Shown here: positions 25,074-48,029 of the stretch, one piece after another
Numbering within the stretch: position 1 is the stretch's first letter
Layout of the letters: each line of letters opens with the position of its first letter
Assembly: GCA_902597015.1 (NCBI GenBank)
Contig: CACJWQ010000007.1
Coordinates: 1 to 62,498, forward strand
Source of the DNA: an uncultured Alphaproteobacteria bacterium
Lineage (GTDB): Bacteria; Pseudomonadota; Alphaproteobacteria; HIMB59; GCA-002718135
Direction: 5' to 3'
Length of the DNA: 62,498 nt
The notes under the pieces: generated by a model
What the model was told of the DNA's origin: nothing
Database searches by the model: none
What the model saw: only the letters and a program-made list of their open reading frames with translations
Position numbers and translations under genes: made by a program

Positions 25074-25964
25074 ATGAATAATGAAGTAATAATTTCGTGT
25101 GCCGTTACTGGATCAGGAGATACAGCAAGTAAACATCCTGAATTACCTATAACGCCAAAACAAATTGCTGATGCTTCAATTGAAGCTGCCAAAGCGGGTG
25201 CAGCAATAGCTCATGTACATGTAAGGGAGCCTGATGGCAAACCTTCTAGAAATTTAAGTTATTATAAAGAAGTGGCAGATAGAATTCGCTCTTCTGAAAC
25301 TGATGTAGTTTTAAATTTTACTACAGGTATGGGTGGTGATTTTGAAGTTGGAACAGGTAAAGATCCTTTAAATCCAGTGGGAGCAAATACGGATATGATC
25401 GATGCATTAAGTAGATTAGAACATGTTGAAGAATTATTACCTGAAATTTGCACTTTAGATTGCGGATCACTAAATTTTGGTGACTCAAACATGACATTTA
25501 TTCATACACCGATACAACTAAGAGCTGCAGCAAAAAAAATGCAGGAGCTTGGAGTGAAACCAGAAATGGAAGCTTTTGAAATGGGTCATTTATGGTTTGC
25601 TAACCAACTTTATAAAGAAGGTTTAATTGATGGTCCTCCTTTTTATCAAATATGCCTTGGTATACCTTGGGGGTCACCAGCAACAACGAGCGCAATGAAA
25701 GCTATGGCTGAAATGGTACCTTCTGAAGGTATTTGGTCTGGATTTGGAATAGGAAGATCGCAAATGCCTATGGCTGCACAAGCGGTTATTTTAGGAGGAA
25801 ATGTTCGTGTGGGACTTGAAGACAATCTTTATTTAAAAAAAGGAGTTTTTGCATCAAATGCACAGTTGGTTGAAAAGGCAAGATGTATTGTTGAAGATAT
25901 GGGAGCGTCTATTTTATCCCCGCAACAGACAAGAGAGAAATTAAAACTAAAAAAACATTTTTAA
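25074..25964 (+). CDS. cdhC: BKACE family 3-dehydrocarnitine cleavage enzyme
   Basis: BKACE (beta-keto acid cleavage) enzymes use acetyl-CoA and Zn2+ to cleave beta-keto acids to acetoacetate plus a CoA ester. The 296-residue protein has the zinc ligands H47 and H49 in [10 protein letters not shown] and a late glutamate in [10 protein letters not shown]. The neighbouring carnitine dehydrogenase and thioesterase make 3-dehydrocarnitine the likely substrate, giving betainyl-CoA and acetoacetate. Its stop is followed after one base by the TTG start of the dehydrogenase. Confidence 0.88.
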
Positions 25965-25965
25965 T

Positions 25966-32028: not shown

Positions 32029-32294
32029 TTATAGATATTATTTATCTCTTTTTTAGAAATATATCCAATAATTTTACCTTTATTATCAGTAACTACTATT
32101 GTTAAGTTGTCTTCAAGAATTTTATTTTTAAAATTTTTTAGTTTTATATTTTGATTTATCTTGTAAATAGAACCTAGTGTTAGGTTATCTTTATTAAAAT
32201 TGTTCTCACTTATCATTATATTTTTTGCTTCTAGATTATCTATTCTATTTTCTTTGCTAGAAAAAAAATTAAGTATAAATTTAAATATATTCAT
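32025..32294 (-). CDS. Small protein with a single CBS-like strand motif
   Basis: This 89-residue protein begins MNIFKFILNFFSS (hydrophobic, possibly membrane-associated) and ends with LTIVVTDNKGKIIGYISKKEI, which matches the second half of a CBS domain. A full CBS pair is not present, so at most half a Bateman module can be argued. It overlaps the SDR start by 4 bp and follows the ATPase by 19 bp, so it is very likely translated as part of the importer operon. The position suggests a regulatory subunit for the transporter, but this is inference only. Confidence 0.6.
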   Translation of the reverse strand: MNIFKFILNFFSSKENRIDNLEAKNIMISENNFNKDNLTLGSIYKINQNIKLKNFKNKILEDNLTIVVTDNKGKIIGYISKKEINNIYK

Positions 32295-32313
32295 TATTTA
32301 TAATATAGATTTA

Positions 32314-33927
32314 TTAAGAAGATCTTTTATTCAGAAGATTAGTTAACCAATCAGGATCCATTTCTGGGACTGAAGACAATAACAGTTCTGTATAATCAGG
32401 GTGTGGGGGATTTAAAATTTTACTTTTTAATCCTTGTTCAACTACTTCACCTTGATACATAACTACTATTTCATCGGAAATAGCTTTAACAGTAGCAATA
32501 TCGTGAGTAATAAAAATGTAAGTCACTCCAAGATCTTTTTGAAGTTTTTGTAAGAGTTTTAAAATTCCTTCTTGAACAATTTGATCCAATGCTGAAGTAA
32601 CCTCGTCACAAATAATTAAATCTGGATTAGCAGCTAGAGCTCTAGCAATACAAATTCTTTGTTTTTGACCTCCTGATAATTCAGATGGCAGTCTATCTAA
32701 AAAAGATTCATCTAATTCAATCATTTTTAACAATTCAATTACTTTAGCCTCACGCTCTTTTCCTTTTACTCCATGGTAAAATTCAATTGGCCTTCCAATT
32801 ATTTCATCAACAGTTTGTTTAGGATTCATTGCTGTATCAGGCATTTGAAAAATTATTTGAATTCTTCTTAATTCTTCTTTTGATCTTTGCTCAAGTTTTG
32901 GAGATAATTTTTTTCCATCAAATATAATTTCTCCTTTGGTTTGAGGCAGTAAGCCTGTTATCACTCTAGCAGTTGTTGATTTTCCTGATCCACTTTCTCC
33001 AACTATTGCTACAGTTTTACCCCTAGGAATATTAACAGAAACATTATGCAGAACTTTTGATGAGCCATAAGCTGCATCGATATTTTTAATGGACAGCATA
33101 TAATCTTCATTCGTTTCTTCAGGCTTGATAAGTGATCTTACTGACCATAGTGATTTGGTATATTCTTCTTTAGGGTTTGAGAGCATCTCTCTCGTTTCAG
33201 ACTCTTCAACTTCTTCTCCATATCTAAGAACTTTAATTCTATCAGCCATTTGAGCAACTACAGCTAAATCATGAGTAATATAAATTGCTGCAGTATTAAA
33301 TTTATCTACTATTGATCTCATAGCAGACAAAACTTCAACTTGAGTAGTTACATCAAGAGCAGTTGTTGGTTCATCAAAAATTATTAGTTCTGGTCTTGGT
33401 GACATAGCCATAGCAGTCATAATTCTTTGTAGTTGACCCCCAGAGACTTGATGGGGATATCTCTCACCAATATTTTCTGCATCTGGTAGTTGCAGTGACT
33501 CATAAAGTTGCACTGCATCTTTTCTTAAAACTTCAGTAGGATTTATCTTTGCTCTATTAGCTGCACTAATGGTTTGATCCATCAATCTATGAGCAGGATT
33601 AAAAGATGCTGCAGCTGATTGTGCAACATATGAAATTTTCGTACCCCATATTTTTCTTTTTTCAAATTCCGTCAATTTTGCAAGATCTGTGCCATTAAAG
33701 AGTATTTCACCTTTAATAATTTTGCAACCTGGTTGAGTGTAACCCATTGCTGCTTTTCCCATAGTCGATTTTCCAGCACCACTTTCTCCAATTAATCCTA
33801 AAATCTCACCTCTGTATAAATTTAGATCAACACCTTTTAGTATTTTATGCCATCTCTCATCTGAAAATCCATCGATATGAATATTCTTCATTTCTAAAAG
33901 AAGTTCTTTTTTATTATTTGATGTCAT
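32314..33927 (-). CDS. Fused dipeptide-type ABC transporter ATPase (DppD-DppF-like)
   Basis: One 537-residue protein holds two ABC ATPase domains. Domain 1 has Walker A GESGAGKST near residue 42 and signature VSGGQLQRI. Domain 2 has GESGSGKST near residue 308 and signature LSGGQKQRI. The arrangement is that of YejF/GsiA, in which both nucleotide-binding subunits of an oligopeptide/nickel-class importer are fused. It overlaps dppC-like by 14 bp. Together with the two permeases and the divergent SBP_bac_5 protein it makes a complete importer. Confidence 0.93.
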   Translation of the reverse strand: MTSNNKKELLLEMKNIHIDGFSDERWHKILKGVDLNLYRGEILGLIGESGAGKSTMGKAAMGYTQPGCKIIKGEILFNGTDLAKLTEFEKRKIWGTKISYVAQSAAASFNPAHRLMDQTISAANRAKINPTEVLRKDAVQLYESLQLPDAENIGERYPHQVSGGQLQRIMTAMAMSPRPELIIFDEPTTALDVTTQVEVLSAMRSIVDKFNTAAIYITHDLAVVAQMADRIKVLRYGEEVEESETREMLSNPKEEYTKSLWSVRSLIKPEETNEDYMLSIKNIDAAYGSSKVLHNVSVNIPRGKTVAIVGESGSGKSTTARVITGLLPQTKGEIIFDGKKLSPKLEQRSKEELRRIQIIFQMPDTAMNPKQTVDEIIGRPIEFYHGVKGKEREAKVIELLKMIELDESFLDRLPSELSGGQKQRICIARALAANPDLIICDEVTSALDQIVQEGILKLLQKLQKDLGVTYIFITHDIATVKAISDEIVVMYQGEVVEQGLKSKILNPPHPDYTELLLSSVPEMDPDWLTNLLNKRSS

Positions 33928-34837
33928 CTTTTAATCCGCTTGTTATGTATAAATACCAATCAATCACAAAATTAATTGCAAGAGCTAATAAAGCAATTAT
34001 TGCAGCAGGTATTAGTGGTGTTAATCCAGCAGTAATATCATATTGGGCATATTGAATTAAAATTGCATTTTCTCTAACCATTGCAGCCCAATCAGCAGCT
34101 GGCGGTTGAATTCCTAAGCCTAAAAAACTTAAACTTGAAACTGTGAAAATAATAAAAATGAATCTCACTCCAAATTCTACAATTAGTGGAGATGCTATAT
34201 TTGGTAAAATTTCTCTAAAAATTATATAAGAAAGTTTTTCTCCCCTTAATTTAGCTACCTCAACATATTCTAATACAACTTGCCCAACAGCTACAGATCT
34301 TGAAATTCTAAAAAACCTCGTTGATTCTAATACCCCTAGAATTAAAATTAAGTTTAAGTTACTTGGCCCAAAAACAGATAAAAGTATAAAAGTAAAAATC
34401 ATTACGGGAATTGCCATTAAAGTATCAATAGATCTACTTAAAATTTGATCAATATAACTTCTATCTATTGCAGCAATTATTCCAAATATTGTTCCTATAA
34501 ATAAAGCAATGGTACAGGCTAAAAAACAAATTCCTAGTGTATTTCTTGAAGCAAATATTAATCTAGAAAGAATATCTCTTCCAATTTGATCTGTTCCTAA
34601 TAAGTGTTCTCCACCCCAAGGCGCATATGCTACTGGGAAAACTTCAGCCTCACCATGTGGCGCAATAAAAGGAGCAAAGAATGCAGCAATAAGATAGATA
34701 GATAGAACAATCATTCCAAACCAAGCAGATAAAGGAGCTTTAGAAAATGCTATTTTAATTCTTTCAAATCTAGTTCTTCTTTTAGCTATATTACTAACTT
34801 CACCTTTTGCTGAATATGATTGTGTATTTTCACTCAT
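33914..34837 (-). CDS. Dipeptide-type ABC transporter permease (DppC-like)
   Basis: This 307-residue permease has an N-terminal cytoplasmic tail (to about residue 35), then about six spans. It carries the DppC-family periplasmic loop HLLGTDQIGRDILSRLIFAS near residue 79 and the EAA-type loop EVAKLRGEKLSYIIFREILP near residue 190. Its ATG overlaps the dppB-like stop (ATGA). It is the second permease of the importer. Confidence 0.91.
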   Translation of the reverse strand: MSENTQSYSAKGEVSNIAKRRTRFERIKIAFSKAPLSAWFGMIVLSIYLIAAFFAPFIAPHGEAEVFPVAYAPWGGEHLLGTDQIGRDILSRLIFASRNTLGICFLACTIALFIGTIFGIIAAIDRSYIDQILSRSIDTLMAIPVMIFTFILLSVFGPSNLNLILILGVLESTRFFRISRSVAVGQVVLEYVEVAKLRGEKLSYIIFREILPNIASPLIVEFGVRFIFIIFTVSSLSFLGLGIQPPAADWAAMVRENAILIQYAQYDITAGLTPLIPAAIIALLALAINFVIDWYLYITSGLKDDIK

Positions 34838-35832
34838 TTTGGATACAAAAGTCTAGGGTTTGAAATTATGCCAATTAAATCAGCTAGTAAATTTAATATA
34901 ACGTAAGTTGATGCAAATATTAAAGCGCAAGCCTGAACAACAGGAATATCTCTATTATAAACGGATCCAACCATTAATCTTCCTATGCCTTGATAATTAA
35001 ATACAAACTCGACAACAACTGAACCAATTAACATGTAGGCAAGATTTATAGTTATTACTTGAGCAATTGGAGCCCAAGCATTAGGCAAAGCATGTTTCAC
35101 AATTACTTCATATCTGGTAGCACCAGATAATTTTGCCATTTCGATATATTCACTTGATAAAATATTGATTATTGCAGATCGAGTCATTCTCATCATGTGA
35201 CCCATTGTTACAAGCGTTAAAGTAAAAACAGGTAAAGCAGTTAAATAAAACCTATCAATTAAGGATGTGTCTTCATTGACATTTGCTATAGTAGGAAAAA
35301 CTGGAAACAAGGTAGCTAATAAAAGAATAAAAATATATCCAGTAAAAAACTCGGGAGAAGAAACAGTAACTAAACTAAAACCAGTTGCCGATCTATCGTA
35401 AACACTATTTCTGTATAAGGCAGCTGAAATACCTAGAAGTAATGCCAGTGGAATAGCTACAAGAGCACTTACTCCGGTTAAAAAAAGTGTATTTTTCAGT
35501 CTGGGAATAATTAGTTCCACAACAAGTCTTGATCTATCACCTTGATCACCTTGTACTTTTGATCTACCTGAGAAAGAACTTCCAAAATCTCCCTGAAATA
35601 CATTAGACAACCATTCAAAATATCTTGGGATTGGATGTTTATCTAAACCTAATTCTGACCTAAGAGCCTCAACTGAGGATTTTGTAGCTGATTGTCCTAG
35701 AATCTCAGTTGCAAAATCTCCTGGCAAAAAAGAAAAACAGCTAAAAATAATTACTGAAAAAGCGAATACAGTAATTAATCCAAGGCCAATTCTTAAAAAA
35801 ATTGTTCTAAATATTGGGTGAATTTGGCTAAT
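34834..35832 (-). CDS. Dipeptide-type ABC transporter permease (DppB-like), apparent ATT start
   Basis: This first permease of the importer has the DppB motifs: PGDFATEILGQSA after the first span, and the EAA loop YIEMAKLSGATRYEVIVKHALP. The first in-frame ATG/GTG/TTG is a TTG at 35727, which would delete the whole first transmembrane helix. Extending upstream, the frame stays open to a TAG at 35842-35844 and encodes a normal DppB N-terminus (RIGLGLITVFAF and onward). A perfect AGGAGG at 35838-35843 lies five bases before an in-frame ATT at 35830-35832. I therefore call the start as ATT, giving 332 residues. The alternative is a base error at that codon. Confidence 0.82.
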   Translation of the reverse strand: MSQIHPIFRTIFLRIGLGLITVFAFSVIIFSCFSFLPGDFATEILGQSATKSSVEALRSELGLDKHPIPRYFEWLSNVFQGDFGSSFSGRSKVQGDQGDRSRLVVELIIPRLKNTLFLTGVSALVAIPLALLLGISAALYRNSVYDRSATGFSLVTVSSPEFFTGYIFILLLATLFPVFPTIANVNEDTSLIDRFYLTALPVFTLTLVTMGHMMRMTRSAIINILSSEYIEMAKLSGATRYEVIVKHALPNAWAPIAQVITINLAYMLIGSVVVEFVFNYQGIGRLMVGSVYNRDIPVVQACALIFASTYVILNLLADLIGIISNPRLLYPK

Positions 35833-36023: not shown

Positions 36024-37652
36024 ATGAAAGATAAGAAAATAGACAAATATATTAAAGAGCAGTCTTCAAAGCTCACTAAAGGGCTAATTGACAGAAGACA
36101 GTTCATGATGTCTGTTCTTGCAACTGGTGTAACTTTACCAATAGCACTATCACTCGCTGATAAAGCTGTTGCTGCTACTCCAAAAAAAGGCGGACATTTA
36201 AGATGGGGTAATGGTGCGGCTGATACTACAGATACACTTGATCCTGCAACTTATCAAAGTTCATTCATGCAAGCTACAGCTTGGTCATATCAAAACTGTT
36301 TAACGGTTGTTGACTCAGACCATACTATTGTTGGAGAGCTTGCTGAGTCAATTGAATCTGATGATGCTCAAACTTGGGTATATAATCTTCGTAAAGGAGT
36401 TGAATTCCATAATGGAAAATCAATGACTGCAGAAGACGTTGTACTTAACTATCAGTATCACATGAATCCAGACACCGCTTCAGCAGCAGGTGGGTTGTTA
36501 TCTCAAATTGAAACAATTTCTGCTGATGGAAATGACAGGGTTATTTTCAAGCTAAAAGGTGCAAACGCTGACTGGCCTGCAATAACTACTGACTATCACA
36601 TTATGATTAAACCAACAAAAGATGGAGTTGTTGATGCTCAATCTACTGTTGGAACTGGTCCTTACATTATGGATGAATTTAATCCAGGTGTTGGAGCAAA
36701 ATTTGGAAAAAGAAATCCAAATTATTTCAAAGGTGATAGTGTTGCACACTTTGATTCAGTTGAAGTAATCGGAATTAATGATCCTGCTACTAGACAAGCG
36801 GCATTATTAAATGGTGAAATAGACTGGATGAACGGTGTTGACTTAAGAACTGCAAATTTACTAACAAGAGATCCAAATGTTGAAATTACTGCAGCATCTG
36901 GATATGCACATTATACAGCTCCAATGAGATTAAATGTGCCGCCATTTGATAATTTTGATGTTCGTATGGCAATGAAGTTTGCAATCAAAAGACAAGAAAT
37001 TGTTGATAAGATAATGCTAGGATATGGAACAGTTGGTAATGATCACCCGATCTCAACTGCTCACCCATACCACAACAATGCTTTAGAGCAGAGAGAGTTC
37101 GATGCTGATAAAGCTGCTTATCACTGGAAAAAATCTGGAGTAAGTGGACCAATTGAAATTAGTACTTCTGAGGTTCCTTATGCAGGATGTACAGATGCAA
37201 CTAACTTGATAGCAGCATCTGCTCAAGAATGTGGTATCGATCTTCGAGTTAAAAAAGAACCTGAAGATGGTTACTGGAGTAACGTATGGAACACTAAAGG
37301 TTTCAGTATGAGTTCTTGGGGTGGAAGACCTACAGAAGATATGATGTGGTCTGCTGCATTCACAGATGATACTGAGTGGAATGAAGCTGCTTGGGGTAAT
37401 CTAGTTCAAACTGATTCAACTGTTCGTTTCAATGAACTTGTTAGAGCTGCTAGATCAGAACTTGATGCAGAAAAAAGAAAATCAATGTACTGGGAAGCAC
37501 AAGCTCTTTGTAACTACGATGGTGGTGCAATTGTTTATGCATTTAACCAATATGTTGGTGCTGGTTCTAAAAAACTTGCTCACGGTGAAGATGTTGCTGG
37601 TAACTGGGAAAGTGATGGTAACAAACTTTCTGAACGTTGGTGGTTTGCATAA
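36024..37652 (+). CDS. Periplasmic binding protein of dipeptide-type ABC importer (SBP_bac_5), Tat-type signal
   Basis: This 542-residue family 5 solute-binding protein has a twin-arginine-like leader: DRRQFMMS at residues 23-30, a hydrophobic stretch and a cleavage-type AVAA near residue 51. The mature part has the family order: PATYQSS, YNLRKGVEFHNGKSMTAEDV near residue 120, and GTGPYIMDEF. It is divergent from the permease operon and carries a strong Shine-Dalgarno (GGGAGG). Family 5 proteins bind peptides but also nickel, heme, opines, oligosaccharides and betaines; the flanking genes make a small methylated or hydroxylated compound more likely than a peptide. Confidence 0.92.
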   Translation: MKDKKIDKYIKEQSSKLTKGLIDRRQFMMSVLATGVTLPIALSLADKAVAATPKKGGHLRWGNGAADTTDTLDPATYQSSFMQATAWSYQNCLTVVDSDHTIVGELAESIESDDAQTWVYNLRKGVEFHNGKSMTAEDVVLNYQYHMNPDTASAAGGLLSQIETISADGNDRVIFKLKGANADWPAITTDYHIMIKPTKDGVVDAQSTVGTGPYIMDEFNPGVGAKFGKRNPNYFKGDSVAHFDSVEVIGINDPATRQAALLNGEIDWMNGVDLRTANLLTRDPNVEITAASGYAHYTAPMRLNVPPFDNFDVRMAMKFAIKRQEIVDKIMLGYGTVGNDHPISTAHPYHNNALEQREFDADKAAYHWKKSGVSGPIEISTSEVPYAGCTDATNLIAASAQECGIDLRVKKEPEDGYWSNVWNTKGFSMSSWGGRPTEDMMWSAAFTDDTEWNEAAWGNLVQTDSTVRFNELVRAARSELDAEKRKSMYWEAQALCNYDGGAIVYAFNQYVGAGSKKLAHGEDVAGNWESDGNKLSERWWFA

Positions 37653-37667
37653 AATATTAATTTTCTT

Positions 37668-37697
37668 TGTGGCGCATTTATATGCGCCACACTTTTT
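37668..37697 (+). terminator. Rho-independent terminator after the binding-protein gene
   Basis: TGTGGCGCAT (37668-37677) pairs exactly with ATGCGCCACA (37682-37691) around a TTAT loop, then CTTTTT follows. The stem is GC-rich against an AT-rich background, and it lies 16 bases after the stop. It is the only textbook terminator I found in the window. It should limit read-through into the methyltransferase gene 19 bp further on. Confidence 0.9.
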
Positions 37698-37716
37698 CTT
37701 CTAATCTTCCAAAAAA

Positions 37717-38640
37717 ATGTTTTTAAAAAATAAGAAATATCTCTTTGATGGAGGTTCAGGTCAAACTTTAATGGAAATGGGTTTAGAAACAAAAGGTGAT
37801 CTTTGGTCTGCACAAGCTTTATTAAATGAAAATAATCACCAAATGGTTGTTGATATGCATAAGAATTTTATAAATGCAGGATCACAATTAATTGTTACTT
37901 CAAATTTTAGTGTTAGAAGAAGACTGTTAAAAAATTACAATTTACTTGATAAATTTGAATTTGGAATACGATCTGCTGGAGCACTTGCATTAAAAGCAAA
38001 AAATGAAAGTGATAAAAAAGTTATTGTTGCAGGCTCATTGCCAAATCAAGGTGTTACATATTCCCCAATACATTTTGAAACTGATGAAACTATGTTTAAC
38101 TATTTTCATGAAATTGCAAAGATATTAAAAGATTACGTCGATATATTTTACTTAGATGTTTTGTGTTCCATCAAAGAAATAAAAATTGCTTTAGAAGCTT
38201 CAAAAGAATTTAATAAACAAGTTCTTGTAGGTGTTCATTTACGTTATGACGGAAAATTACCATCTGGAGAAAGTCTTGATGAACTTTTTGAAACTATTCA
38301 AAAATTTAATTGTTGTGGCATAGTATCAGCCTGCGTATCACCTGAAATCATTAATTTGAGTATTCCTATGTTTAATAAACAAAAGCTTCCTTTTGGTTAT
38401 AAAATGAATTTATTTAAAGAACTGCCTACTAGTAATGAAGAAAAATTTAATTCAGAAGGTTTTGAAGAAAATTATGATTATGTTGATCCCGTTGAGTTAC
38501 TTGGAACTCGAAATGAAGAATTTGGACAAGAAAAATATAGAAAGTTTGTTTTAAATTCTTTAAATGAAGGTGTTACTCTAGTTGGTGGATGTTGTGAAGT
38601 AAAGCCACGACATATTGAAGCTATTAAGAATTTATTTTAA
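37717..38640 (+). CDS. Homocysteine S-methyltransferase family protein
   Basis: These zinc enzymes transfer a methyl group from S-methylmethionine, betaine or a related onium donor to homocysteine, making methionine. The 307-residue protein has the N-terminal DGGSGQTLMEMG and all three zinc cysteines: one in SACVSPE near residue 207, and C292-C293 in LVGGCCEV. Family members with glycine betaine (BHMT) or S-methylmethionine (MmuM) as donor cannot be separated by eye. Linkage to GcvT-like and DmdA-like demethylases, and to the carnitine-to-betaine genes upstream, suggests that a methylated osmolyte is the donor. Confidence 0.88.
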   Translation: MFLKNKKYLFDGGSGQTLMEMGLETKGDLWSAQALLNENNHQMVVDMHKNFINAGSQLIVTSNFSVRRRLLKNYNLLDKFEFGIRSAGALALKAKNESDKKVIVAGSLPNQGVTYSPIHFETDETMFNYFHEIAKILKDYVDIFYLDVLCSIKEIKIALEASKEFNKQVLVGVHLRYDGKLPSGESLDELFETIQKFNCCGIVSACVSPEIINLSIPMFNKQKLPFGYKMNLFKELPTSNEEKFNSEGFEENYDYVDPVELLGTRNEEFGQEKYRKFVLNSLNEGVTLVGGCCEVKPRHIEAIKNLF

Positions 38641-38681
38641 AATTTTTTTTTCATTATTTTGTGATAAGTTGAATAAATTTT

Positions 38682-39911
38682 ATGGGAGATTTAGTTAGTA
38701 ATTACAGATTTGTTGTAAAACCAGTTGTTAAAGAAACTGGTAGATCTCTAGATTTGGCTAGACCCATGAAAATACATCCTCTTACTTATCAAGAGTTACC
38801 ACTTAACCCCGAATATACTAACTACGCTGATGGTAGATTTACACTTGAAAAATTATCTCATGCTACAGCAGATGAAATGTATTGGAAAGCTAGACAAGAA
38901 ATAATTTTACGTCATACAGGTGAGCATCCATACGAAATATCTGGTCCTGATGCTGAAAATTTACTTCAACAAATATTTCCTAGAGATATTTCAAAAGTTA
39001 AAATTGGAAGATGCTCCTATCAATTTGCTTGTTACCATGATGGAGGAATGATTTCAGATGGATTATTATTAAGATTAGAAAAAAATAAATTTTGGTTTGC
39101 CCAAGGTGATGGACATTTATACAGTTGGTACAAAGCTCATTCAAAAAATTTAGATGTTGAAATTAAAGATCCAAACGTTTGGGTTAGTCAAATACAAGGC
39201 CCTAAATCTCTAAAACTTTTAGAAAAACTAGTTGATCAACCATTAAAAAATAATTTTAATTATTTTGATTGGGTTGAAACTTCAATTGCTTCAGAAAAAG
39301 TAATTATAAGCAGAACAGGTTTTACAAATGAACTTGGCTGGGAGATTTATTTAAGGCCAGAAAATGATTCAAAAAAAATTGGAGACTTAATACTCAGTAA
39401 GGGTGAAGAAATGGGAATGATCCTTACAGCCTCTCCAGGATTTAGATGTAGAAGAATTGAAGCAGGTCTCTTATCTGCAGGGAGAGATTTTACAAGAGAC
39501 AGATCTCCATTTGCTGTTGGATTAGGAAAATTTATAGATTTTAATAAAGGTGATTTTATTGGAAGAGATTATTTACTAAATGCAAGCAAAGATTGCTTAA
39601 CATGGGGTATGAGAGTGGAAAAAAGCTTTGCGTTGGTTGATTCTGAAATTTCTATTAATAATAAAAAAGTTGGAATTGTAACTTCAAGTACATGGTCGCC
39701 ATTTCAAGTTTGTGGTGTTGCTATAGTTCATATGGATAATGCAGAATTTGGACCAGACACAATAGTAGATGTTAGTTGTGATGATGGTAGTGTGCAAAAA
39801 GGTGAAATTTGCACTTTACCAATGTATGATGAGAAAGGTGAAATACAAAGAGGTTTAAAAGAGGATATTCCATCTAATCCAATACCTTGGAAGGGTATTT
39901 CAAAAAACTAG
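38682..39911 (+). CDS. GcvT-fold aminomethyltransferase-like protein
   Basis: This 409-residue tetrahydrofolate-dependent demethylase/aminomethyltransferase-fold protein has an N-terminal extension of about 60 residues, HTGEHPYEISGPDAENLL, YHDGGMISDGLLLRL, the SRTGFTNELGWEIYL segment and FRCRRIEAGLLSAGRDF. It is not glycine-cleavage T protein by context, since gcvH and gcvP are absent. GcvT-like proteins elsewhere demethylate DMSP (DmdA), dimethylglycine, sarcosine or aromatic methoxy groups (LigM). A THF-dependent demethylation of the imported compound is inferred. It lies 41 bp after the methyltransferase and 49 bp before the FMN enzyme. Confidence 0.82.
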   Translation: MGDLVSNYRFVVKPVVKETGRSLDLARPMKIHPLTYQELPLNPEYTNYADGRFTLEKLSHATADEMYWKARQEIILRHTGEHPYEISGPDAENLLQQIFPRDISKVKIGRCSYQFACYHDGGMISDGLLLRLEKNKFWFAQGDGHLYSWYKAHSKNLDVEIKDPNVWVSQIQGPKSLKLLEKLVDQPLKNNFNYFDWVETSIASEKVIISRTGFTNELGWEIYLRPENDSKKIGDLILSKGEEMGMILTASPGFRCRRIEAGLLSAGRDFTRDRSPFAVGLGKFIDFNKGDFIGRDYLLNASKDCLTWGMRVEKSFALVDSEISINNKKVGIVTSSTWSPFQVCGVAIVHMDNAEFGPDTIVDVSCDDGSVQKGEICTLPMYDEKGEIQRGLKEDIPSNPIPWKGISKN

Positions 39912-39960
39912 TATTATTTTATAATAGAATTATAAATTATATTAGAATACAAATATTAAA

Positions 39961-41124
39961 ATGAATGAACTCATTAAACCTAGCAATAAAATCCATACAA
40001 TAGATGATGCAATAAGGTTATCAAAAAAGAGATTACCAAAATTAGTCTTTGACTTTATTGATGGAGCATCAGGAGATGACAAACTTGCAGAAATTAATAG
40101 TACAGCATTAGATCAAATTAGACTTGAGCCTAAGGTTTTTAGAAATGTTGAGAATAGAAATTTAAGTAAAAAAATATTTGATTTTCATTTTGATTATCCA
40201 TTTGGATTTGCACCAATGGGAATGACAAATCTTTCATGGCCTGATGCAGATAAAATGATTGCAAAAGAAAGTGCGTATAATAATATTCCAACATGTGTTT
40301 CAATGGCTTCTAGCACTACGCTAGAAGATATGTTTACTTTTTCAGAAGGTCATTCGTGGATGCAAATATATATTTTTCAAAGTGAAGAATTTATTATGGA
40401 ATTATTAAAAAGAGCAGAAAGTATTGGATACAAGGTTTTGATCCTTACTGTTGATGTTCCAATTCTTTCAAGAAGAGCAAGAGATGATAGAAATGGTTTT
40501 GGTTATCCTTTTAAAATTGGTCCAAAACAATTTTTAGATTTTGCACTACATCCTCAATGGAGCTTAACAACTTTATTAAAGGGTGCTCCAAAACCAATGA
40601 ATTATGTTACTTCTAAAAGTGGAGATCAAATTTTTAGAAGAAAAGAAAGTAGAGGCACTACTGACTGGGATACTTTAAAAAGAATTAGAGAAGCTTGGAA
40701 AGGAAAATTAATTATCAAAGGAGTAATGAATTCTGAAGATGCTTTGAAAATTAAAGAGGCTGGTGCTGATGCAATTCAAGTATCAAATCATGGTGGAAGA
40801 CAATTAGATAGTGCTACTGCTTCTATTAATGCTTTACCATTAATACGAAAAGCTTTGGGAGAAGATTTCCCAATACTTTTTGATAGTGGCATTAGAAGTG
40901 GTAGTGATATTTTACGTGCATTAGCTCTGGGAGCTGACTTTGTTATGTTTGGCAGACCTCTAATGTATGCCATTGGTGCGGATGGTGCAAAAGGCCTTAG
41001 AAGAATCATTAACTTAATTAAAGAAGAGTTAAGTACAAATCTTGGCTTAGTGGGGTTAACAGATATAAATGAAGTTGATAAAAAAATAATAGCAGAGAAA
41101 TTTTTTAAGGATATAAAGTATTAA
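39961..41124 (+). CDS. FMN-dependent alpha-hydroxyacid dehydrogenase (LldD/glycolate oxidase family)
   Basis: This 387-residue TIM-barrel flavoenzyme has the active-site SNHGGRQLD motif near residue 271, with the catalytic histidine and arginine, a tyrosine in WMQIYIF, LTVDVP near residue 160, and the phosphate-binding FDSGIRSGSDILRALALGA. It oxidises an alpha-hydroxy acid to the alpha-keto acid. L-lactate, glycolate, mandelate and longer substrates are all known in the family. The next gene starts one base after its stop and encodes a ThDP enzyme that could act on an alpha-keto acid, which links the two chemically. Confidence 0.9.
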   Translation: MNELIKPSNKIHTIDDAIRLSKKRLPKLVFDFIDGASGDDKLAEINSTALDQIRLEPKVFRNVENRNLSKKIFDFHFDYPFGFAPMGMTNLSWPDADKMIAKESAYNNIPTCVSMASSTTLEDMFTFSEGHSWMQIYIFQSEEFIMELLKRAESIGYKVLILTVDVPILSRRARDDRNGFGYPFKIGPKQFLDFALHPQWSLTTLLKGAPKPMNYVTSKSGDQIFRRKESRGTTDWDTLKRIREAWKGKLIIKGVMNSEDALKIKEAGADAIQVSNHGGRQLDSATASINALPLIRKALGEDFPILFDSGIRSGSDILRALALGADFVMFGRPLMYAIGADGAKGLRRIINLIKEELSTNLGLVGLTDINEVDKKIIAEKFFKDIKY

Positions 41125-41125
41125 G

Positions 41126-42868
41126 ATGGCAGACAAAAAGATTAGAGGTGGGGCATTAGTTGCAAGAGCTCTTAGAGACAAAGGTATTGATAATGTTTTT
41201 ACACTTTCTGGAGGCTTTTGTAATCCGGCACTTGAAGGATTTATGGAGTGTCAAATTAATGTAATTAATTGTCCTCATGAACAAATTGCTGGTCATTTAG
41301 CTGATGGTCATACTAGGATATCAAGAAAACCATCCGTTTGTATTGTCGGGCCAGAAGGTTTTGCAAATGCAGTGCCTTCGATGATGGAAGCATGGGGTGA
41401 AAGATCACCTGTTATTTTTATAACTGGATCAAGTAGCTTAAAAAGACAAGGAGCAGGAGGTTTTAAAGAAATAGATGATGTATCTATTGCAGCACCGTTA
41501 ACAAAATACAGTGCAAGTATAACAGATGGCAACAGAATAAGAGAGTTCATAGATAAAGCATATAGAATTGCAACAAATGGTTATCCAGGTGCAGTACATT
41601 TAAGTGTACCAGTAGATATAATGTTTTCATCATTTGCAGATGATGCAGGTTTAGAAGAAAGACCTTTTACTCATCAAAAGAAACCTCTAGCAAAAGCTTG
41701 GCCTGATCCTGAGAGTTTAAATGAAATATTTGATCTAGCAATTAGTGCACAAAAACCTGTTTTTATAGGAGGGCATGGAGTTTGGTGGTCTAGTGCAGAA
41801 AAAAAATTAGAGCAAGCTGGCTTTGAATTAAACATTCCAATATTTAATATACCATACCATCAGAAGCTTTTAGGTGAAGAAGTAGATACATACATGGGGC
41901 TGGCAGATATTCATCAATATCCTCCATCAAAAATGGCTCTCCATGAATCAGATTTGGTTCTTATGATTGGTGCACGTCTTGATAATCAAATGAATTTTGG
42001 AAATCCTCCACTTTTTCCAAAAAGCACTAAGCTTGTTTGTATTAATGGATCGCATGAAGAAATAGAATTAAATAGAGCTGCAGATATTAACTTACTTTGT
42101 GACCCTGGAGTCTTTTTGGATAAACTCATAGAGTTAAAGAAAAACAGTAAATGGAAATTAAATAATGAATGGTTTAATAAGAATAAGAAAGAGAAAAAAA
42201 ATTGGATCAATAAAACATTAAATGACTTAAATAAAGAAACTGAAGCGGCTAAGAAAGAAGGTGGAAAAATTCATCCTCTTCAATTAGCTTTAGATGTTCA
42301 AGAAGTGTTAACTGATAATGATTGGTTAGTTATTGATGGTGGTAATACGCATTTCTGGTCCGAGATTGCAATTAATATTGCTGGATCAAAAGGTAAAAAA
42401 CTTGGAGGAATATTACATCCAGGTACTTTCAGCATGTTAGGTGTTGGAGTTCCTTTTGCAGTATCAGCGAAAAATCTTAATCCTAAATCTAATGTTGTTT
42501 TAATAAGTGGAGATGGTGCATTTTTATCTGGCGGATTATCAATTGAAGCTGCATTTCAAGAAAAAAAACCTATTGTTGTAGTTATCGATAACAATGGAGG
42601 TCTTGACTGTATTTCTCAACAACAGGAAAGGTTGTTTGAAAGTGGGAAACACTTTGCAACTGATTTTAGAGATATTCCATTTCATTCAATTTTCGAGGGT
42701 TTTGGAGGACATGGAGAATTAGTTACTAAAAGAGAAGATTTAGGCCCCGCTTTAAAAAGAGCGTTAGAAAGTGGTAAAACTGCATGTGTAAATGTTAAGG
42801 CTAAAGGTGTTATTAGTCCAATAGTTGCTGCAGTTAGTGATAAAAGAGATAAAGCGTCTATAGAGTAG
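41126..42868 (+). CDS. ThDP-dependent enzyme of the acetolactate synthase/decarboxylase family
   Basis: The 580-residue protein has all three ThDP-enzyme domains. The catalytic glutamate is in NCPHEQIAGHLADGH near residue 54, and the Mg/ThDP motif GDGAFLSGG...DNNGG is near residues 462-491. It is shorter than no IlvB, yet no IlvN regulatory subunit gene follows and the operon is catabolic. So acetolactate synthesis is unlikely. Decarboxylation or lyase cleavage of an alpha-keto or 2-hydroxyacyl substrate produced by the upstream FMN enzyme is the simplest reading. It sits one base after that gene and 3 bp before the transthyretin-like gene. Confidence 0.87.
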   Translation: MADKKIRGGALVARALRDKGIDNVFTLSGGFCNPALEGFMECQINVINCPHEQIAGHLADGHTRISRKPSVCIVGPEGFANAVPSMMEAWGERSPVIFITGSSSLKRQGAGGFKEIDDVSIAAPLTKYSASITDGNRIREFIDKAYRIATNGYPGAVHLSVPVDIMFSSFADDAGLEERPFTHQKKPLAKAWPDPESLNEIFDLAISAQKPVFIGGHGVWWSSAEKKLEQAGFELNIPIFNIPYHQKLLGEEVDTYMGLADIHQYPPSKMALHESDLVLMIGARLDNQMNFGNPPLFPKSTKLVCINGSHEEIELNRAADINLLCDPGVFLDKLIELKKNSKWKLNNEWFNKNKKEKKNWINKTLNDLNKETEAAKKEGGKIHPLQLALDVQEVLTDNDWLVIDGGNTHFWSEIAINIAGSKGKKLGGILHPGTFSMLGVGVPFAVSAKNLNPKSNVVLISGDGAFLSGGLSIEAAFQEKKPIVVVIDNNGGLDCISQQQERLFESGKHFATDFRDIPFHSIFEGFGGHGELVTKREDLGPALKRALESGKTACVNVKAKGVISPIVAAVSDKRDKASIE

Positions 42869-42871
42869 GTT

Positions 42872-43207
42872 ATGGCAATTTTTTCTACACATTTACTAAA
42901 CTCAATAGATGGTACGCATGCGAGTGATGTAGAAATTGTTATTTATAAAGTAAATAATAATAACAAAGTTGTATTTCTAGAAGATAAAACAGATAGTTCT
43001 GGAAGAATGCTTAAAGAATTTGAATTAACGAAAGAAGATTGTGAAAGTGATTATGAAATGATAATTAATTCTGGTAAATATTTTAGAAATACTAGTGAAA
43101 TAATTAATTCAATCTGTGTTAAATTTAAAATGAAAGATCCTCTTAAAAAATATCACATACCTTTAATTGTTTCTCCAAATGGATACTCAATATGGTGGTC
43201 TAAATAA
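42872..43207 (+). CDS. Transthyretin/HIU hydrolase-like protein lacking the YRGS tail
   Basis: This 111-residue protein of the 5-hydroxyisourate hydrolase/transthyretin fold begins with IFSTHLLNSIDGTHASDVEI (histidine of the STHxLD motif), has the DSSGRM loop near residue 44, and KYHIPLIVSPNGYS near residue 93 (the second active-site histidine). True HIU hydrolases end in YRGS; here the tail reads SIWWSK. No other purine-catabolism gene is nearby. It is therefore probably a re-purposed hydrolase for a cyclic or lactone-like intermediate. It is between the ThDP enzyme and the DmdA-like gene with gaps of 3 and 1 bp. Confidence 0.8.
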   Translation: MAIFSTHLLNSIDGTHASDVEIVIYKVNNNNKVVFLEDKTDSSGRMLKEFELTKEDCESDYEMIINSGKYFRNTSEIINSICVKFKMKDPLKKYHIPLIVSPNGYSIWWSK

Positions 43208-43208
43208 A

Positions 43209-44330
43209 ATGAGTAATTCAGGATTAAACATGTCTAGACGCATTAGGAGGACTCCTTATACCGAGAAAGTAATTGAGGCTGGTGTAAGTGGTTTTACTGT
43301 AGTTAATCATATGCTTCTTCCAAAATCATATAAAGCAACAGTTGAAGAAGATTATTGGCACTTATCTAAAAATACTCAAATTTGGGATGTTTCATGTCAA
43401 CGACAGGTTCAAATAATAGGAGAAGATGCTACAGAATTAATACAACTCATGTCACCAAGATCAATAAAAGATATGCCTATTGGTAAATGTTACTATTATC
43501 CAATGATAGATGAAAATGCAGGGATGATAAATGATCCTGTACTTTTAAAATTAAGTGAAAATAAATATTGGCTATCAGTTGCAGATTCAGATGTCCTTCT
43601 TTGGGCAAAAGGATTGGCTGTAGGAAGAAATTTTAAAGTTGATATTATAGAGCCAGATATTTATCCCTTAGCAATTCAAGGTCCAAAATCTGAAAAATTA
43701 ATGTCATCAATATTTGGAGAAAAAATTAAAAAATTAAAATTCTTTCATTTTTCTTTTTTTGAATTTGAAGGAACAAAACAGATAATTGCAAGATCAGGAT
43801 ATAGCAAACAAGATGGTTTTGAGATTTACCTTAAAGGTTTTAGTTTAGGAAAAAAACTTTGGGAAACTATTTGGGAAGCAGGAAAAATTTTTAATATTTC
43901 ACCTGGATGTCCAAATTTAATTGATAGAATAGAAGGTGGTTTATTATCCTATGGTAATGAATTTACTTTAGAAAATAATCCAATTGAATGTGGATTTGAT
44001 AATTATTGTAACAATTTATCTCATGATTTCATTGGAAAAAATGCATTAAAAAAAATATTAAAAAATGGAATAGAAAAAAAAATAAAAGGAATTACTTTTG
44101 ATGGGTCCCCGACTCCTTCGTGTACAATACCTTTTCCTGTATACTCAAAAAATAGATTTCAAATTGGTAATATCACCTCTGGTATTTATTCACCGTTTTT
44201 TAAAACCAATATTGGGCTATCAATGGTTGATAGAGATTATTGGAATGATGGGCAGGATGTTATCGTATTAACACCAGATAATATTGAGAGAAAAGGTAAA
44301 GTGTGCTCACTACCTTTTAATTATTCTTAA
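43209..44330 (+). CDS. DmdA-like tetrahydrofolate-dependent demethylase
   Basis: DmdA moves a methyl group from dimethylsulfoniopropionate to THF. This 373-residue protein resembles Pelagibacter DmdA along its whole length: SRRIRRTPYTEKVIEAGV, NHMLLPKSYKATVEEDYWHL, IQGPKSEKLM, the PGCPNLIDRIEGGLLSYGNE region, and a C-terminus ending VCSLPF. The RSGW segment of DmdA, whose tryptophan I recall as part of the DMSP pocket, reads RSGY here, so the substrate may differ. The start is the ATG at 43209, two bases after the previous stop; an upstream ATG at 43167 lies inside the transthyretin-like gene. Confidence 0.85.
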   Translation: MSNSGLNMSRRIRRTPYTEKVIEAGVSGFTVVNHMLLPKSYKATVEEDYWHLSKNTQIWDVSCQRQVQIIGEDATELIQLMSPRSIKDMPIGKCYYYPMIDENAGMINDPVLLKLSENKYWLSVADSDVLLWAKGLAVGRNFKVDIIEPDIYPLAIQGPKSEKLMSSIFGEKIKKLKFFHFSFFEFEGTKQIIARSGYSKQDGFEIYLKGFSLGKKLWETIWEAGKIFNISPGCPNLIDRIEGGLLSYGNEFTLENNPIECGFDNYCNNLSHDFIGKNALKKILKNGIEKKIKGITFDGSPTPSCTIPFPVYSKNRFQIGNITSGIYSPFFKTNIGLSMVDRDYWNDGQDVIVLTPDNIERKGKVCSLPFNYS

Positions 44331-44331
44331 A

Positions 44332-44778
44332 ATGAGTCATTCAATCAAATTAGAGTGGGAATTAGGAGATCAAAAACTCGAATTTGGAAAATACTTAACT
44401 GATCACACAGTAATGCTTAACGAAAATGTATCTATTGATGCGGGATCATCTCCAGATTATGGAGGAAGCGAAACTAATATTAATCCAGAACAAAAACTAG
44501 CTGCAGCTGTAAGTAGTTGTTTTATGATGACGTTTTTAGCTTTAGCTGCAAAAATGAAATGGCCAGTTATTAATTACAAAGATAAAGCAATTTCGTATTT
44601 AGGAAAAAATGCAGAGGGAAGAATGTACGTTAACAAAATAGAGCTAAATCCAGCCATAGTATTTGAAGATAATTTTACTATTACTGATGAAGAAATGAAA
44701 AAGATGAAAGAGAGATCGCATAAGTATTGTTTTATCGCTAATTCACTATCTAAAGATGTTGAAATTCAAATCAATTAA
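44332..44778 (+). CDS. OsmC-family protein
   Basis: This 148-residue OsmC/Ohr-fold protein has the two redox-type cysteines, in AAVSSCFMMTFL near residue 61 and RSHKYCFIANSL near residue 130. OsmC proteins reduce organic hydroperoxides or act as thiol-dependent stress proteins. The start at 44332 (MSHSIKLEW) is one base after the preceding stop; an ATG at 44284 is inside the demethylase gene. It probably protects against, or processes, a reactive product made by the operon. Confidence 0.85.
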   Translation: MSHSIKLEWELGDQKLEFGKYLTDHTVMLNENVSIDAGSSPDYGGSETNINPEQKLAAAVSSCFMMTFLALAAKMKWPVINYKDKAISYLGKNAEGRMYVNKIELNPAIVFEDNFTITDEEMKKMKERSHKYCFIANSLSKDVEIQIN

Positions 44779-45570
44779 ATGAATTTTAATCTAATTTTAA
44801 CAGAAAAAAATAATAATATTTTTAATATTATTCTTAATAATCAGAAAAACCAAAACACTTTAACTGAAAACATGATCAATGAATTAACATCAGCGCTAGA
44901 CATTGCTGATAAAGATAATGAAGTAAAAGTAATTATTTTATCATCAAAAGGTAATATTTTTTGTGCAGGACATAATTTAAAAGATTTAAATTCACAAAGA
45001 TTGCAAAATGACAAAGGTGAAAGCTATTTTAAAAAAATATTTCAAATGTGCTCTCAGCTTATGCTCAAAATTAATAAAAATAATAAACCAGTTATAGCTA
45101 TGGTTGATGGTATTGCTACTGCAGCAGGCTGTCAGTTAATTTCTAGCTGTGATCTAGCCTACTCAAGTAGTAGAGCAAAATATGCAACCCCGGGTGTTAA
45201 CATAGGATTATTTTGTTCTACGCCAATGGTTCCATTATCAAGAACTGTAGGTAAAAAACAAGCAATGGAAATGCTTCTCACAGGAGATCTTATAGATGCA
45301 AATAAAGCATTAAGGATTGGTTTAATAAATGATGTCTTTGAAGAAGATAGTTTAAAAGAAAATGTATTTCAAATTGCTAAAAAAATATCTTCTAAATCTT
45401 CTAATACTATTAAAATTGGTAAAGAAGCTTTTTACAAACAAAAAGATATGAATTTAGAAGACGCCTATACTTTTACTTCAAAGGTAATGACGGAAAATAT
45501 GTTACATGATGATTCTAAGGAAGGCATTGATGCTTTTTTAGAAAAGAGAGAACCAAATTGGAAAGAATAA
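44779..45570 (+). CDS. ECHDC3-type crotonase-fold protein
   Basis: This 263-residue crotonase-superfamily protein has the CoA-binding FCAGHNLKDL near residue 66 and the oxyanion-hole region DGIATAAGCQLISSCDLA near residue 112. It resembles ECHDC3 proteins (ATPGVNIGLFCSTPMV segment). The two catalytic glutamates of enoyl-CoA hydratase align with Gln (GCQLI) and Gly (TPGVN), so ordinary hydration is unlikely. Its start directly follows the OsmC stop. It is the last gene of the run starting at the methyltransferase and converges on the hydroxylase gene with a 4-bp gap. Confidence 0.85.
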   Translation: MNFNLILTEKNNNIFNIILNNQKNQNTLTENMINELTSALDIADKDNEVKVIILSSKGNIFCAGHNLKDLNSQRLQNDKGESYFKKIFQMCSQLMLKINKNNKPVIAMVDGIATAAGCQLISSCDLAYSSSRAKYATPGVNIGLFCSTPMVPLSRTVGKKQAMEMLLTGDLIDANKALRIGLINDVFEEDSLKENVFQIAKKISSKSSNTIKIGKEAFYKQKDMNLEDAYTFTSKVMTENMLHDDSKEGIDAFLEKREPNWKE

Positions 45571-45574: not shown

Positions 45575-46510
45575 TCATTTTTTTGTACCATCATTAAAAG
45601 TTCCAAAAAATCTATCCCAAGGCATTTCTATAGTTCCATAATTACAATTAAAGTATCGGTGGTGAAGTTGGTGAAAGAAATCACCTGCTTTTAATCTTTT
45701 TTTATCTTTAATCACAATACTATCAAAGCCGGAATGACTAAAAGCTGGATTTAATCCTTGTTGATAAAAATGAAAAAGTACATGTATTGGACTTGACGGA
45801 ACAACAAAATGTATAACTACTGTTGAAAAGTATAAAATATGTTCGATAGGATGCATAGATATGCCACTCCAAGGTCCTGGACTTATATTTCTATGATGTA
45901 AATTGTGAACAGTTTTATAGAGAAAAGTAAAATGTAATAATCGATGAATAATATAAAAGTGCGCACTTGACCAAATAGGAATTAAAATAAAAAATATTCC
46001 ATACCAAAAAGGGTTATCATGCCAAAACATGATAGGAACGATATCATTACTTGCTGCCCAAAAATAAAAACTTTCAAATATTGTCCATATAGTAACACCA
46101 CTTATAATTGTCCAAAAAATATTATCAAAAAGTTGATTATTGAAAGTAAATTTTTTTACTTTTTCATCTATAAATTTTTTTTCAAATTTAAGTTTTTTAC
46201 TTTGTCCTTTTAAGTAATAAAACCAAAAATGTAGAGAACCAGCAACAAGAGTGATTAAAATACAATTTCTAATCCATAACTGTGCAATCCACGAAAAAGA
46301 AAAATTTTTCATTTCTTCAGCAGACGGGTGAAACAAATAGAATATAAATATAGCAAGTAGGACTTCAATTATAATTGAACTAATGTGAAGCCAATAAGAA
46401 GCTAGCCATTTGAAAAACAATAAAAAATTTGGTGGCCAATCTAATATTGGCGATAATTTAATTGGTAAGGTTGGTTGCCAATTCCATTCATGGCGATTTT
46501 TTAAACTCAT
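45575..46510 (-). CDS. Sterol desaturase/fatty acid hydroxylase family membrane protein
   Basis: This 311-residue integral membrane diiron protein has about four hydrophobic spans and the histidine boxes HRLLH, HNLHH and HQLHH, plus MHPIEH. Such enzymes hydroxylate or desaturate lipid chains or sterols, or cleave ether bonds, using O2 at the membrane. It follows the aldehyde dehydrogenase by one base and the GMC gene beyond that, suggesting one operon of hydroxylation, alcohol oxidation and aldehyde oxidation. The substrate is unknown. Confidence 0.85.
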   Translation of the reverse strand: MSLKNRHEWNWQPTLPIKLSPILDWPPNFLLFFKWLASYWLHISSIIIEVLLAIFIFYLFHPSAEEMKNFSFSWIAQLWIRNCILITLVAGSLHFWFYYLKGQSKKLKFEKKFIDEKVKKFTFNNQLFDNIFWTIISGVTIWTIFESFYFWAASNDIVPIMFWHDNPFWYGIFFILIPIWSSAHFYIIHRLLHFTFLYKTVHNLHHRNISPGPWSGISMHPIEHILYFSTVVIHFVVPSSPIHVLFHFYQQGLNPAFSHSGFDSIVIKDKKRLKAGDFFHQLHHRYFNCNYGTIEMPWDRFFGTFNDGTKK

Positions 46511-47984: not shown

Positions 47985-48029
47985 AATTTATTTAAACTTA
48001 AATATTTTCATTGGTCAACTTATTTGTGA

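Follow-up and report, generated by a model that had tools for sequence, protein, structure and literature searches.

What compound is handled by an operon that combines an importer, methyl-transfer enzymes, a flavin mononucleotide (FMN) oxidase, a thiamine diphosphate (ThDP) enzyme and a small protein of the transthyretin (TTR) fold? The question is raised by positions 36024-45570 of the window, by which we mean the whole stretch of 62,498 nucleotides analyzed here, contig C7 of an uncultured Alphaproteobacteria genome (1.2 Mb in 58 contigs, 66.7% complete). A sequence-only reading had taken the locus as a candidate for an undescribed system of catabolism, in which linked genes encode an importer together with several methyl-transfer enzymes, and the linkage found in the 114 loci described below bears this out. 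Our answer, to which we give a probability of about 60%, is a module for the catabolism of a small molecule that is imported and carries several methyl groups. Neither dimethylsulfoniopropionate (DMSP) nor urate is a probable candidate, and the compound is perhaps cyclic or amide-bearing. The module is common to several marine alphaproteobacterial groups, in which the importer, the FMN, ThDP and TTR-fold proteins and a relative of the DMSP demethylase DmdA (DmdA-like) are kept together.

Gene order and linkage of the core

Nine genes fill the region, all on the + strand, with the importer partners on the opposite strand (Table 1). Pfam places their products, in order, in SBP_bac_5, S-methyl_trans, GCV_T, FMN_dh, three TPP_enzyme domains, Transthyretin, GCV_T, OsmC and ECH_1, which confirms the families assigned by the sequence-only reading. 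Two longer, mechanically chosen starts gave negative gaps; better ATG starts were read from the sequence for the DmdA-like (43209) and OsmC (44332) genes. With these starts the FMN and ThDP genes are 1 bp apart, ThDP and TTR 3 bp, TTR and DmdA-like 1 bp, DmdA-like and OsmC 1 bp, and OsmC and the crotonase-fold gene 0 bp, so the co-orientation and 0-3 bp gaps described earlier from position 39961 hold in both coordinates and gene list. The gaps upstream of the FMN gene are 64, 41, and 49 bp.

Linkage was surveyed around the ThDP protein in 114 distinct loci (sets of 4, 80, 17, and 13), which were picked by ThDP similarity and include many close relatives, so that the fair unit is about seven groups rather than 114 events. 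Of the stretches confirmed in a scan of named genomes (556), 80 loci were retained; 29 of these lie outside the window's own genus and are filed under Pelagibacteraceae or Pelagibacterales. Loci L050 and L052 were left out of the count as duplicates of L102 and L100, respectively, with identical ThDP DNA. Most of the named relatives closest to the source genome in the collection are single-cell genomes that carry the label "uncultured Alphaproteobacteria". The seven groups are the own genus, SAR11, SAR116-type, f174, f175, f81, and f24, where "own genus", for which HIMB59-like is a provisional name, and "SAR116-type" are our labels. A gene was scored as present when it lay no more than 9 kb from the ThDP gene, with bit thresholds for each family and the required room set by us; loci too short to judge were scored as contig ends and excluded from the counts that we call determinable.

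The TTR-like gene follows the ThDP gene by 3-130 bp in 114/114 loci. The FMN oxidase is near in 106 loci and missing in 5 (3 contig ends), and the DmdA-like gene is near in 108 and missing in 5 (1 contig end). In five of the seven groups, each locus with enough room to judge has both, as does one of the four f81 loci. A family-5 binding protein was found in 84 loci, including 37/37 determinable loci of the own genus; 25 loci reach a contig end first, and 5 are without it (1 SAR11, 1 SAR116-type, 2 f81, and 1 f175). This linkage is more than a chance array of genes, and homologues scattered without conserved linkage, the outcome that would have spoken against the earlier proposal, are not what we see. 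Co-occurrence of the eight operon families, the check suggested with that proposal, holds in part: ThDP, TTR, FMN, and DmdA-like genes are linked, whereas the homocysteine S-methyltransferase-family gene (HMT), the first GcvT-fold gene (GcvT1), OsmC and the crotonase are lineage-specific and lie outside the core. The core is thus the ThDP-TTR pair, usually with FMN and DmdA-like genes, around which HMT, GcvT1, a MttB-family methyltransferase and an S51 hydrolase vary by lineage.

Among determinable loci, GcvT1 occurs in 44/44 of the own genus and 38/38 of SAR11 and in 0/11 of the SAR116-type; HMT occurs in 40/40 of the own genus and 1/35 of SAR11. OsmC (47/47) and crotonase (44/44) are constant in the own genus and found in 0/62 loci elsewhere. 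SAR11 has a thiolase in place of the crotonase (42/42 loci, with 1/12 in the SAR116-type and 1/2 in f175). MttB is found in 6/11 SAR116-type loci (PF06253, 386 bits in L044) and 0/79 others. The S51 hydrolase is present in 39/39 SAR11, 9/11 SAR116-type, 2/2 f174, and 1/1 f24 loci, and an asparaginase adjoins the ThDP gene in L048 and L203.

At strict E-values the ThDP protein was detected in 67/162 genomes of the own order, confined to one of seven genera, in 39/247 genomes of the SAR11 order, in 32/136 of the order of genome G372 and in 4/14 of the order of G523. In class-wide and phylum-wide draws, where ThDP was scored on the best three candidates per genome, it was found in 6/385 genomes (two of the own genus) and 2/398 genomes (one being the source genome itself), respectively. 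Such a patchy distribution fits a specialized trait.

The FMN, ThDP, TTR-fold, and DmdA-like proteins

The FMN enzyme retains the catalytic His274 in 105/106 loci, the exception (L085) being a fragment at a contig end, and Arg277 in 106/106. At the position of Tyr26 of mandelate dehydrogenase, it carries Phe in 100/101 rows, with Tyr in L217 only. This Tyr contacts the substrate carboxylate in mandelate dehydrogenase and in glycolate oxidase, and its replacement speaks against a plain alpha-hydroxyacid such as 4-dimethylsulfonio-2-hydroxybutyrate (DMSHB) as the substrate. The ThDP enzyme is nearest to oxalyl-CoA decarboxylase/2-hydroxyacyl-CoA lyase structures, and it reaches no NCBIfam cut-off among the best 25 of 51 models, by which its membership among named ThDP enzymes (acetolactate synthase, Xsc, oxalyl-CoA decarboxylase) was judged.

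The TTR-fold protein keeps His9, Arg47, and His98, the catalytic residues of hydroxyisourate hydrolase (HIUase), in 113/113 rows each (L119 yielded no row). The Tyr of the YRGS motif (Tyr111) is Trp in 113/113 rows, followed by Trp in 106, Tyr in 3, Leu in 2, Met in 1, and Ile in 1. The NCBIfam hydroxyisourate hydrolase model scores 69.1 bits on the protein of the window, below its cut-off of 87.45. As an internal control, we looked for other TTR-family genes in the same genomes. A decarboxylase for 2-oxo-4-hydroxy-4-carboxy-5-ureidoimidazoline (OHCU) is encoded in 9/14 genomes, near the other TTR-family gene and not near the cluster. This separate gene lies within about 1.2 kb of the OHCU decarboxylase in 9/9 non-SAR11 genomes tested, of which G523 has two more, and the second copies end in YRGS in 9/9 read. 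The SAR11 genomes contain the cluster copy only and no OHCU decarboxylase (5/5). By motif and by context, the cluster protein reads as something other than a hydroxyisourate hydrolase. In G000 (C29:4068-5857, locus L232), a YRGS hydroxyisourate hydrolase gene stands about 1 kb from the OHCU decarboxylase gene, and purine breakdown genes are also present in that genome.

The DmdA-like protein is 49.6% identical to the DmdA structure 3tfh over 363 residues, keeps the folate residues Glu204 and Tyr206 and passes the NCBIfam DmdA model NF009133 (530.1 bits against a cut-off of 410). In a tree that excludes one duplicate of the window protein and retains two long-branch rows of G523, the cluster proteins form a clade (13 rows, support 96/96) that is sister to the DmdA clade with 3tfh (11 rows, 100/99). 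A DmdA at 65-76% identity to 3tfh coexists with the DmdA-like protein in 10/10 own-genus and SAR11 genomes examined. For three SAR116-type genomes, one other copy each was compared, at 36-38% identity to 3tfh, further copies being outside the comparison. In the portion of PMC7487153 available to us, W171 is described as key for DMSP in DmdA. We equated this residue with Trp197 of 3tfh by matching Glu178/Tyr180 of that numbering to Glu204/Tyr206. The position is Trp in 11/11 proteins of the DmdA clade and Tyr in 13/13 cluster proteins, all of which also carry Met for Lys8 and Val for Tyr32. By phylogeny, the DmdA-like protein is placed as a distinct paralogue rather than DmdA. Because it passes the curated DmdA cut-off, gene counts of DMSP demethylation made with NF009133 may mix two families and could be inflated.

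The remaining methyl-transfer proteins are less constant in their occurrence. The match of GcvT1 to the trimethylamine N-oxide (TMAO) demethylase model covers the C-terminal part. HMT reaches the cut-off of neither of its best equivalog models (85.7 against 215 bits and 85.1 against 338), and it has the PF02574 fold with Cys206, Cys292, and Cys293, the zinc-cysteine motif of the family. Solved relatives of the MttB protein include glycine betaine methyltransferase, so its presence in SAR116-type loci supports quaternary ammonium methyl groups.

A proposed route and competing explanations

These observations suggest a scheme for the module, the general part of which we consider likely. Uptake would be through the Opp-type importer. 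From N+ or S+, methyl groups would pass to tetrahydrofolate (THF) through the DmdA-like protein, and perhaps GcvT1, or to homocysteine through HMT, with the MttB-family protein as a further methyl-transfer enzyme in part of the SAR116-type loci. The FMN enzyme may oxidize an alcohol (or amine) whose neighboring carbonyl probably belongs to something other than a free carboxylate, for instance a lactone or cyclic amide; hydrolysis of that ring would fall to the TTR-fold protein, by chemistry like that of its relative on 5-hydroxyisourate; and the ThDP enzyme would cleave the resulting 2-oxo acid. The lost carboxylate contact and the TTR ancestry together fit a cyclic amide or lactone as the FMN product, opened by the TTR-fold protein. 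OsmC may clear peroxide from the FMN enzyme, and the thiolase or crotonase may handle the carbon skeleton. A compound that contains an amide or an amino acid would agree with the S51 hydrolase and asparaginase genes that other groups have next to the core. The exact order of FMN, then TTR, then ThDP is a tentative proposal that we think more likely wrong than right.

Several observations weigh against this scheme. The order of steps rests on one residue change and analogy, and the demethylases need not act on one compound. The five loci without the FMN gene are the same five that are without the DmdA-like gene (3/4 of f81 and 2/2 of f175), and where it can be determined, these f81 and f175 loci also are without the family-5 importer, so the ThDP-TTR pair is able to occur without its usual partners. 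In f175, two PhyH-type dioxygenases adjoin the pair instead (L211 by model, L212 by similarity). The S51 hydrolase is absent from 36/36 determinable own-genus loci, as well as from 3/3 in f81 and 1/1 in f175, and the amide theme therefore fails for the window itself. MttB enzymes work with a corrinoid protein, and no search for such a partner was made. Finally, the 114 loci are not independent events, having been collected through ThDP similarity with many of them closely related.

Which other substrates or arrangements might account for the same genes? The sequence-only reading had put forward hydroxylated osmolytes of the sulfonium or quaternary ammonium kind, such as DMSHB. In that version, the FMN enzyme would make a 2-oxo acid, the ThDP enzyme would decarboxylate it, the demethylases would remove the methyl groups, and the TTR-fold protein would be a side hydrolase. 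The FMN-ThDP pair does follow the logic of the mandelate pathway, in which an FMN mandelate dehydrogenase is combined with a ThDP benzoylformate decarboxylase, and the structures nearest to the FMN enzyme include mandelate dehydrogenases. The closest match of the DmdA-like protein is a sulfonium demethylase, and PMC12366255 describes HMT relatives with activity on betaine, DMSP, and S-methylmethionine. However, the TTR-fold protein, paired with the ThDP enzyme in 114/114 loci and thus its most constant partner, is hardly a side enzyme, and the Tyr-to-Phe change in the FMN enzyme takes away the contact that would hold the carboxylate of such a substrate. The importer also belongs to family 5, whereas betaine importers are usually of other kinds. 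The earlier interpretation is partly supported, being right in outline, but the support does not extend to its substrate class or its order of steps. An osmolyte as the substrate is possible, but we regard it as unlikely.

The genes could also make up a metabolic island rather than one pathway, with demethylation genes that are separate from an FMN-ThDP-TTR pathway and lie next to it for reasons of regulation only. The window does contain other methylated-amine genes (carnitine-type at 25074-26886 and choline-type at 46512-49673), and in f81 and f175 loci, ThDP-TTR stands without the DmdA-like gene. Against this arrangement, the genes within the operon are separated by 0-3 bp, and the DmdA-like gene lies no more than 850 bp after the ThDP gene wherever it is found, with the TTR gene between, in all long-enough loci of the five groups noted above. 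We therefore think such an island improbable.

Breakdown of a methylated purine or ureide would assign the TTR-fold protein to an N-methylated ring resembling 5-hydroxyisourate, the demethylases to the N-methyl groups, and the ThDP enzyme to glyoxylate-type products. The HIUase fold with its three catalytic residues would suit this route, as would a gene of the malate/lactate/ureidoglycolate/sulfolactate dehydrogenase family that lies close to the core in L047 and at a greater distance in L105. The loss of YRGS in 113/113 rows points the other way, and HIUase with OHCU decarboxylase is found elsewhere in the genome in 9/9 non-SAR11 cases and is absent in 5/5 SAR11 genomes (urate oxidases were not searched for). 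With separate YRGS copies serving as a paralogue control, purine breakdown by the cluster TTR-fold protein is disfavored, and we judge the route very unlikely.

A second DMSP route, in which the DmdA-like protein demethylates DMSP or methylmercaptopropionate (MMPA) and the remaining enzymes handle by-products, draws on the DmdA model score (530 against 410 bits) and on the crotonase-fold gene that ends the own-genus operon, this being the fold of DmdD. PMC3160333 speculates that SAR11_1265, another DmdA-like paralogue of SAR11, takes part in the second demethylation of DMSP. Plain DMSP demethylation by the DmdA-like protein is nevertheless disfavored by the closer DmdA that coexists in 10/10 own-genus and SAR11 genomes and by the sister-clade placement. 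The Trp that is specific for DMSP (residue role from the available part of PMC7487153) is Tyr in 13/13 cluster proteins, and the crotonase is missing from 62/62 determinable loci outside the own genus. In addition, Pfam identifies no CoA ligase or acyl-CoA dehydrogenase domain of the DmdB or DmdC type among the nine genes, and we give this route little credence. Least of all do we expect a mycosporine-like amino acid or a similar methoxy-cyclohexenone conjugate of an amino acid. In that case, the GcvT-fold proteins would remove the enol-ether methyl, S51 or asparaginase would take off the amino acid, and the ThDP enzyme would cut a 1,2-diketone ring. O-demethylases of the GcvT fold are known, the LigM and DesA models give weak matches here, and an importer with amide hydrolases would suit such a conjugate. 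A methyl on N+ or S+ is favored, however, by the MttB genes and by the similarity to DmdA, and of the 143 solved ThDP matches, the best 60 include none named as a ring hydrolase.

The catabolic module for an imported, methylated compound that we prefer would then contain two apparently re-purposed enzymes, the TTR-fold and DmdA-like proteins, within a demethylating operon. We see a slightly less than even chance that it represents a widespread, unrecognized pathway for a methylated metabolite in part of SAR11, in SAR116-type bacteria and in the own genus; in it, a TTR-fold protein would have a new activity, hydrolysis of a ring other than hydroxyisourate, and the clade that is sister to DmdA would act on a new substrate. 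The ThDP marker occurs in about one-sixth of the SAR11-order genomes sampled and about one-quarter of those in the order of G372. Should a common algal metabolite prove to be the substrate, current annotation would be missing or miscounting a flux of carbon, nitrogen, and methyl groups in the surface ocean. No account of the gene set was found in the literature as far as it was accessible to us; bioRxiv preprints and most subscription journals lay outside this scope, which leaves absence unproven. The accessible portions of work on homarine, on gonyol and other DMSP analogues, on SAR11 binding proteins, on transthyretin or hydroxyisourate in SAR11 and SAR116 bacteria, and on HTCC7211 aminomethyltransferases offered no substrate lead for the module.

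Neighboring genes and comparison with known systems

Table 1. Genes of the module and its importer, with positions in the window
Feature	Position	Strand	Basis
Opp/Dpp-type ATP-binding cassette (ABC) importer ATPase, two nucleotide-binding stretches	32314..33927	-	adjoins core in own-genus loci
ABC permease 2	33914..34837	-	own-genus loci comparison
ABC permease 1	34834..35727	-	own-genus loci comparison
Solute-binding protein, family 5 (SBP_bac_5)	36024..37652	+	PF00496 1.7e-67
Homocysteine S-methyltransferase-family protein (HMT)	37717..38640	+	PF02574 4.2e-40; Cys206/Cys292/Cys293
GcvT1, GcvT-fold protein	38682..39911	+	nearest models TMAO demethylase, DmdA; below both cut-offs
FMN-dependent alpha-hydroxyacid oxidase-family enzyme, active-site Tyr to Phe	39961..41124	+	PF01070 1.1e-119
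ThDP enzyme	41126..42868	+	Glu in HEQ motif 51-53, GDG at 462
Transthyretin/HIUase-fold protein, WWSK for YRGS	42872..43207	+	PF00576 3.6e-19
DmdA-like demethylase (DmdAL), placed as sister clade of DmdA	43209..44330	+	NCBIfam model, tree
OsmC/Ohr-family protein, lineage-specific	44332..44778	+	Pfam, linkage counts
Crotonase-fold protein, lineage-specific	44779..45570	+	NCBIfam PRK08139 enoyl-CoA hydratase, 367 vs 313 bits
FA_hydroxylase-family membrane protein, possible optional member	45575..46510	-	PF04116

The importer had been described as a divergent operon with a glucose-methanol-choline (GMC) oxidase and a short-chain dehydrogenase/reductase (SDR). The permeases, ATPase, SDR, and GMC genes are indeed on the - strand (29645-35727), but the binding-protein gene is on the + strand, directly upstream of the operon. 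The binding protein is of the peptide/nickel/opine-type family 5, with nickel- and oligopeptide-binding structures nearest. An equivalent importer adjoins the core in SAR11 and SAR116-type loci, and two kinds can be told apart, the own-genus binding protein being about 28-32% identical to the SAR11/SAR116 type. In the SAR11 locus L127, the family-5 binding protein is encoded at 5308-6834. One SAR116-type locus, L217, carries the own-genus type of importer (55% identity), and it is the same locus whose FMN enzyme retains the usual Tyr. An SDR gene adjoins the importer in those own-genus loci that are long enough to show it, and the GMC gene (29645-31246) scores above the choline dehydrogenase subfamily cut-off (703 vs 605 bits); membership of either in the pathway is a candidate assignment. 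The FA_hydroxylase gene is strain-variable, being found in 13/42 determinable own-genus loci and near the DmdA-like gene in 2/2 f174 loci, and it may encode an optional step.

Farther out in the window, positions 24564-26886 contain genes resembling a carnitine route, namely a thioesterase-like gene (by eye) and members of the keto-acid cleavage enzyme and L-carnitine dehydrogenase families, the latter two below curated cut-offs. Betaine-aldehyde dehydrogenase-like and choline dehydrogenase-like genes at 46512-49673 are oriented toward the operon and are also below cut-offs. In SAR11 loci (e.g., L127, 14394-20856), the usual neighbors of the cluster are a further ABC importer operon and genes that resemble those of the ectoine hydrolase EutD and of EutA but score below curated cut-offs (462 vs 613 and 190 vs 318 bits, respectively). 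A local rearrangement marks the SAR11 locus L105 (7063-8146): ahead of its intact ThDP gene lie part of a second ThDP stretch and a remnant of GcvT1, and its TTR and DmdA-like genes are separated by an additional small gene. In L215 (13327-15900), three genes stand beside the FMN gene in place of the S51 gene of other loci, and two of them resemble, by eye, the 5-oxoprolinase subunits PxpA and PxpB. A candidate ThDP-TTR fusion in G968 (a frame of 745 amino acids) was rejected; the frame ends with ThDP, its start is over-long, and TTR is a separate downstream match.

How does the module compare with systems that are already known? GcvT-fold demethylases that feed THF are shared with the SAR11 one-carbon genes, among which the accessible part of Sun et al. 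2011 (PMC3160333) lists the HTCC1062 aminomethyltransferases SAR11_0246, 0666, 1265, and 1303; there, the four are given other neighbors, and no ThDP enzyme, FMN oxidase, or TTR-fold protein is named. With DmdA (PDB 3tfh), the DmdA-like protein has in common 49.6% identity, the folate residues, and a score over the NCBIfam cut-off; it differs by its placement in a sister clade, by Tyr for Trp197, and by the closer DmdA found elsewhere in 10/10 genomes. The cluster TTR-fold protein belongs to the same fold family as HIUase and has His9, Arg47, and His98, but it is without YRGS, and a separate YRGS HIUase is present in 9/9 non-SAR11 genomes. Like the mandelate pathway, the module unites FMN and ThDP enzymes in one operon, and mandelate dehydrogenases are among the nearest FMN structures; here, however, the ThDP enzyme is nearest to oxalyl-CoA decarboxylase types, Tyr26 of the FMN enzyme is replaced by Phe, and a TTR-fold protein and demethylases are added.

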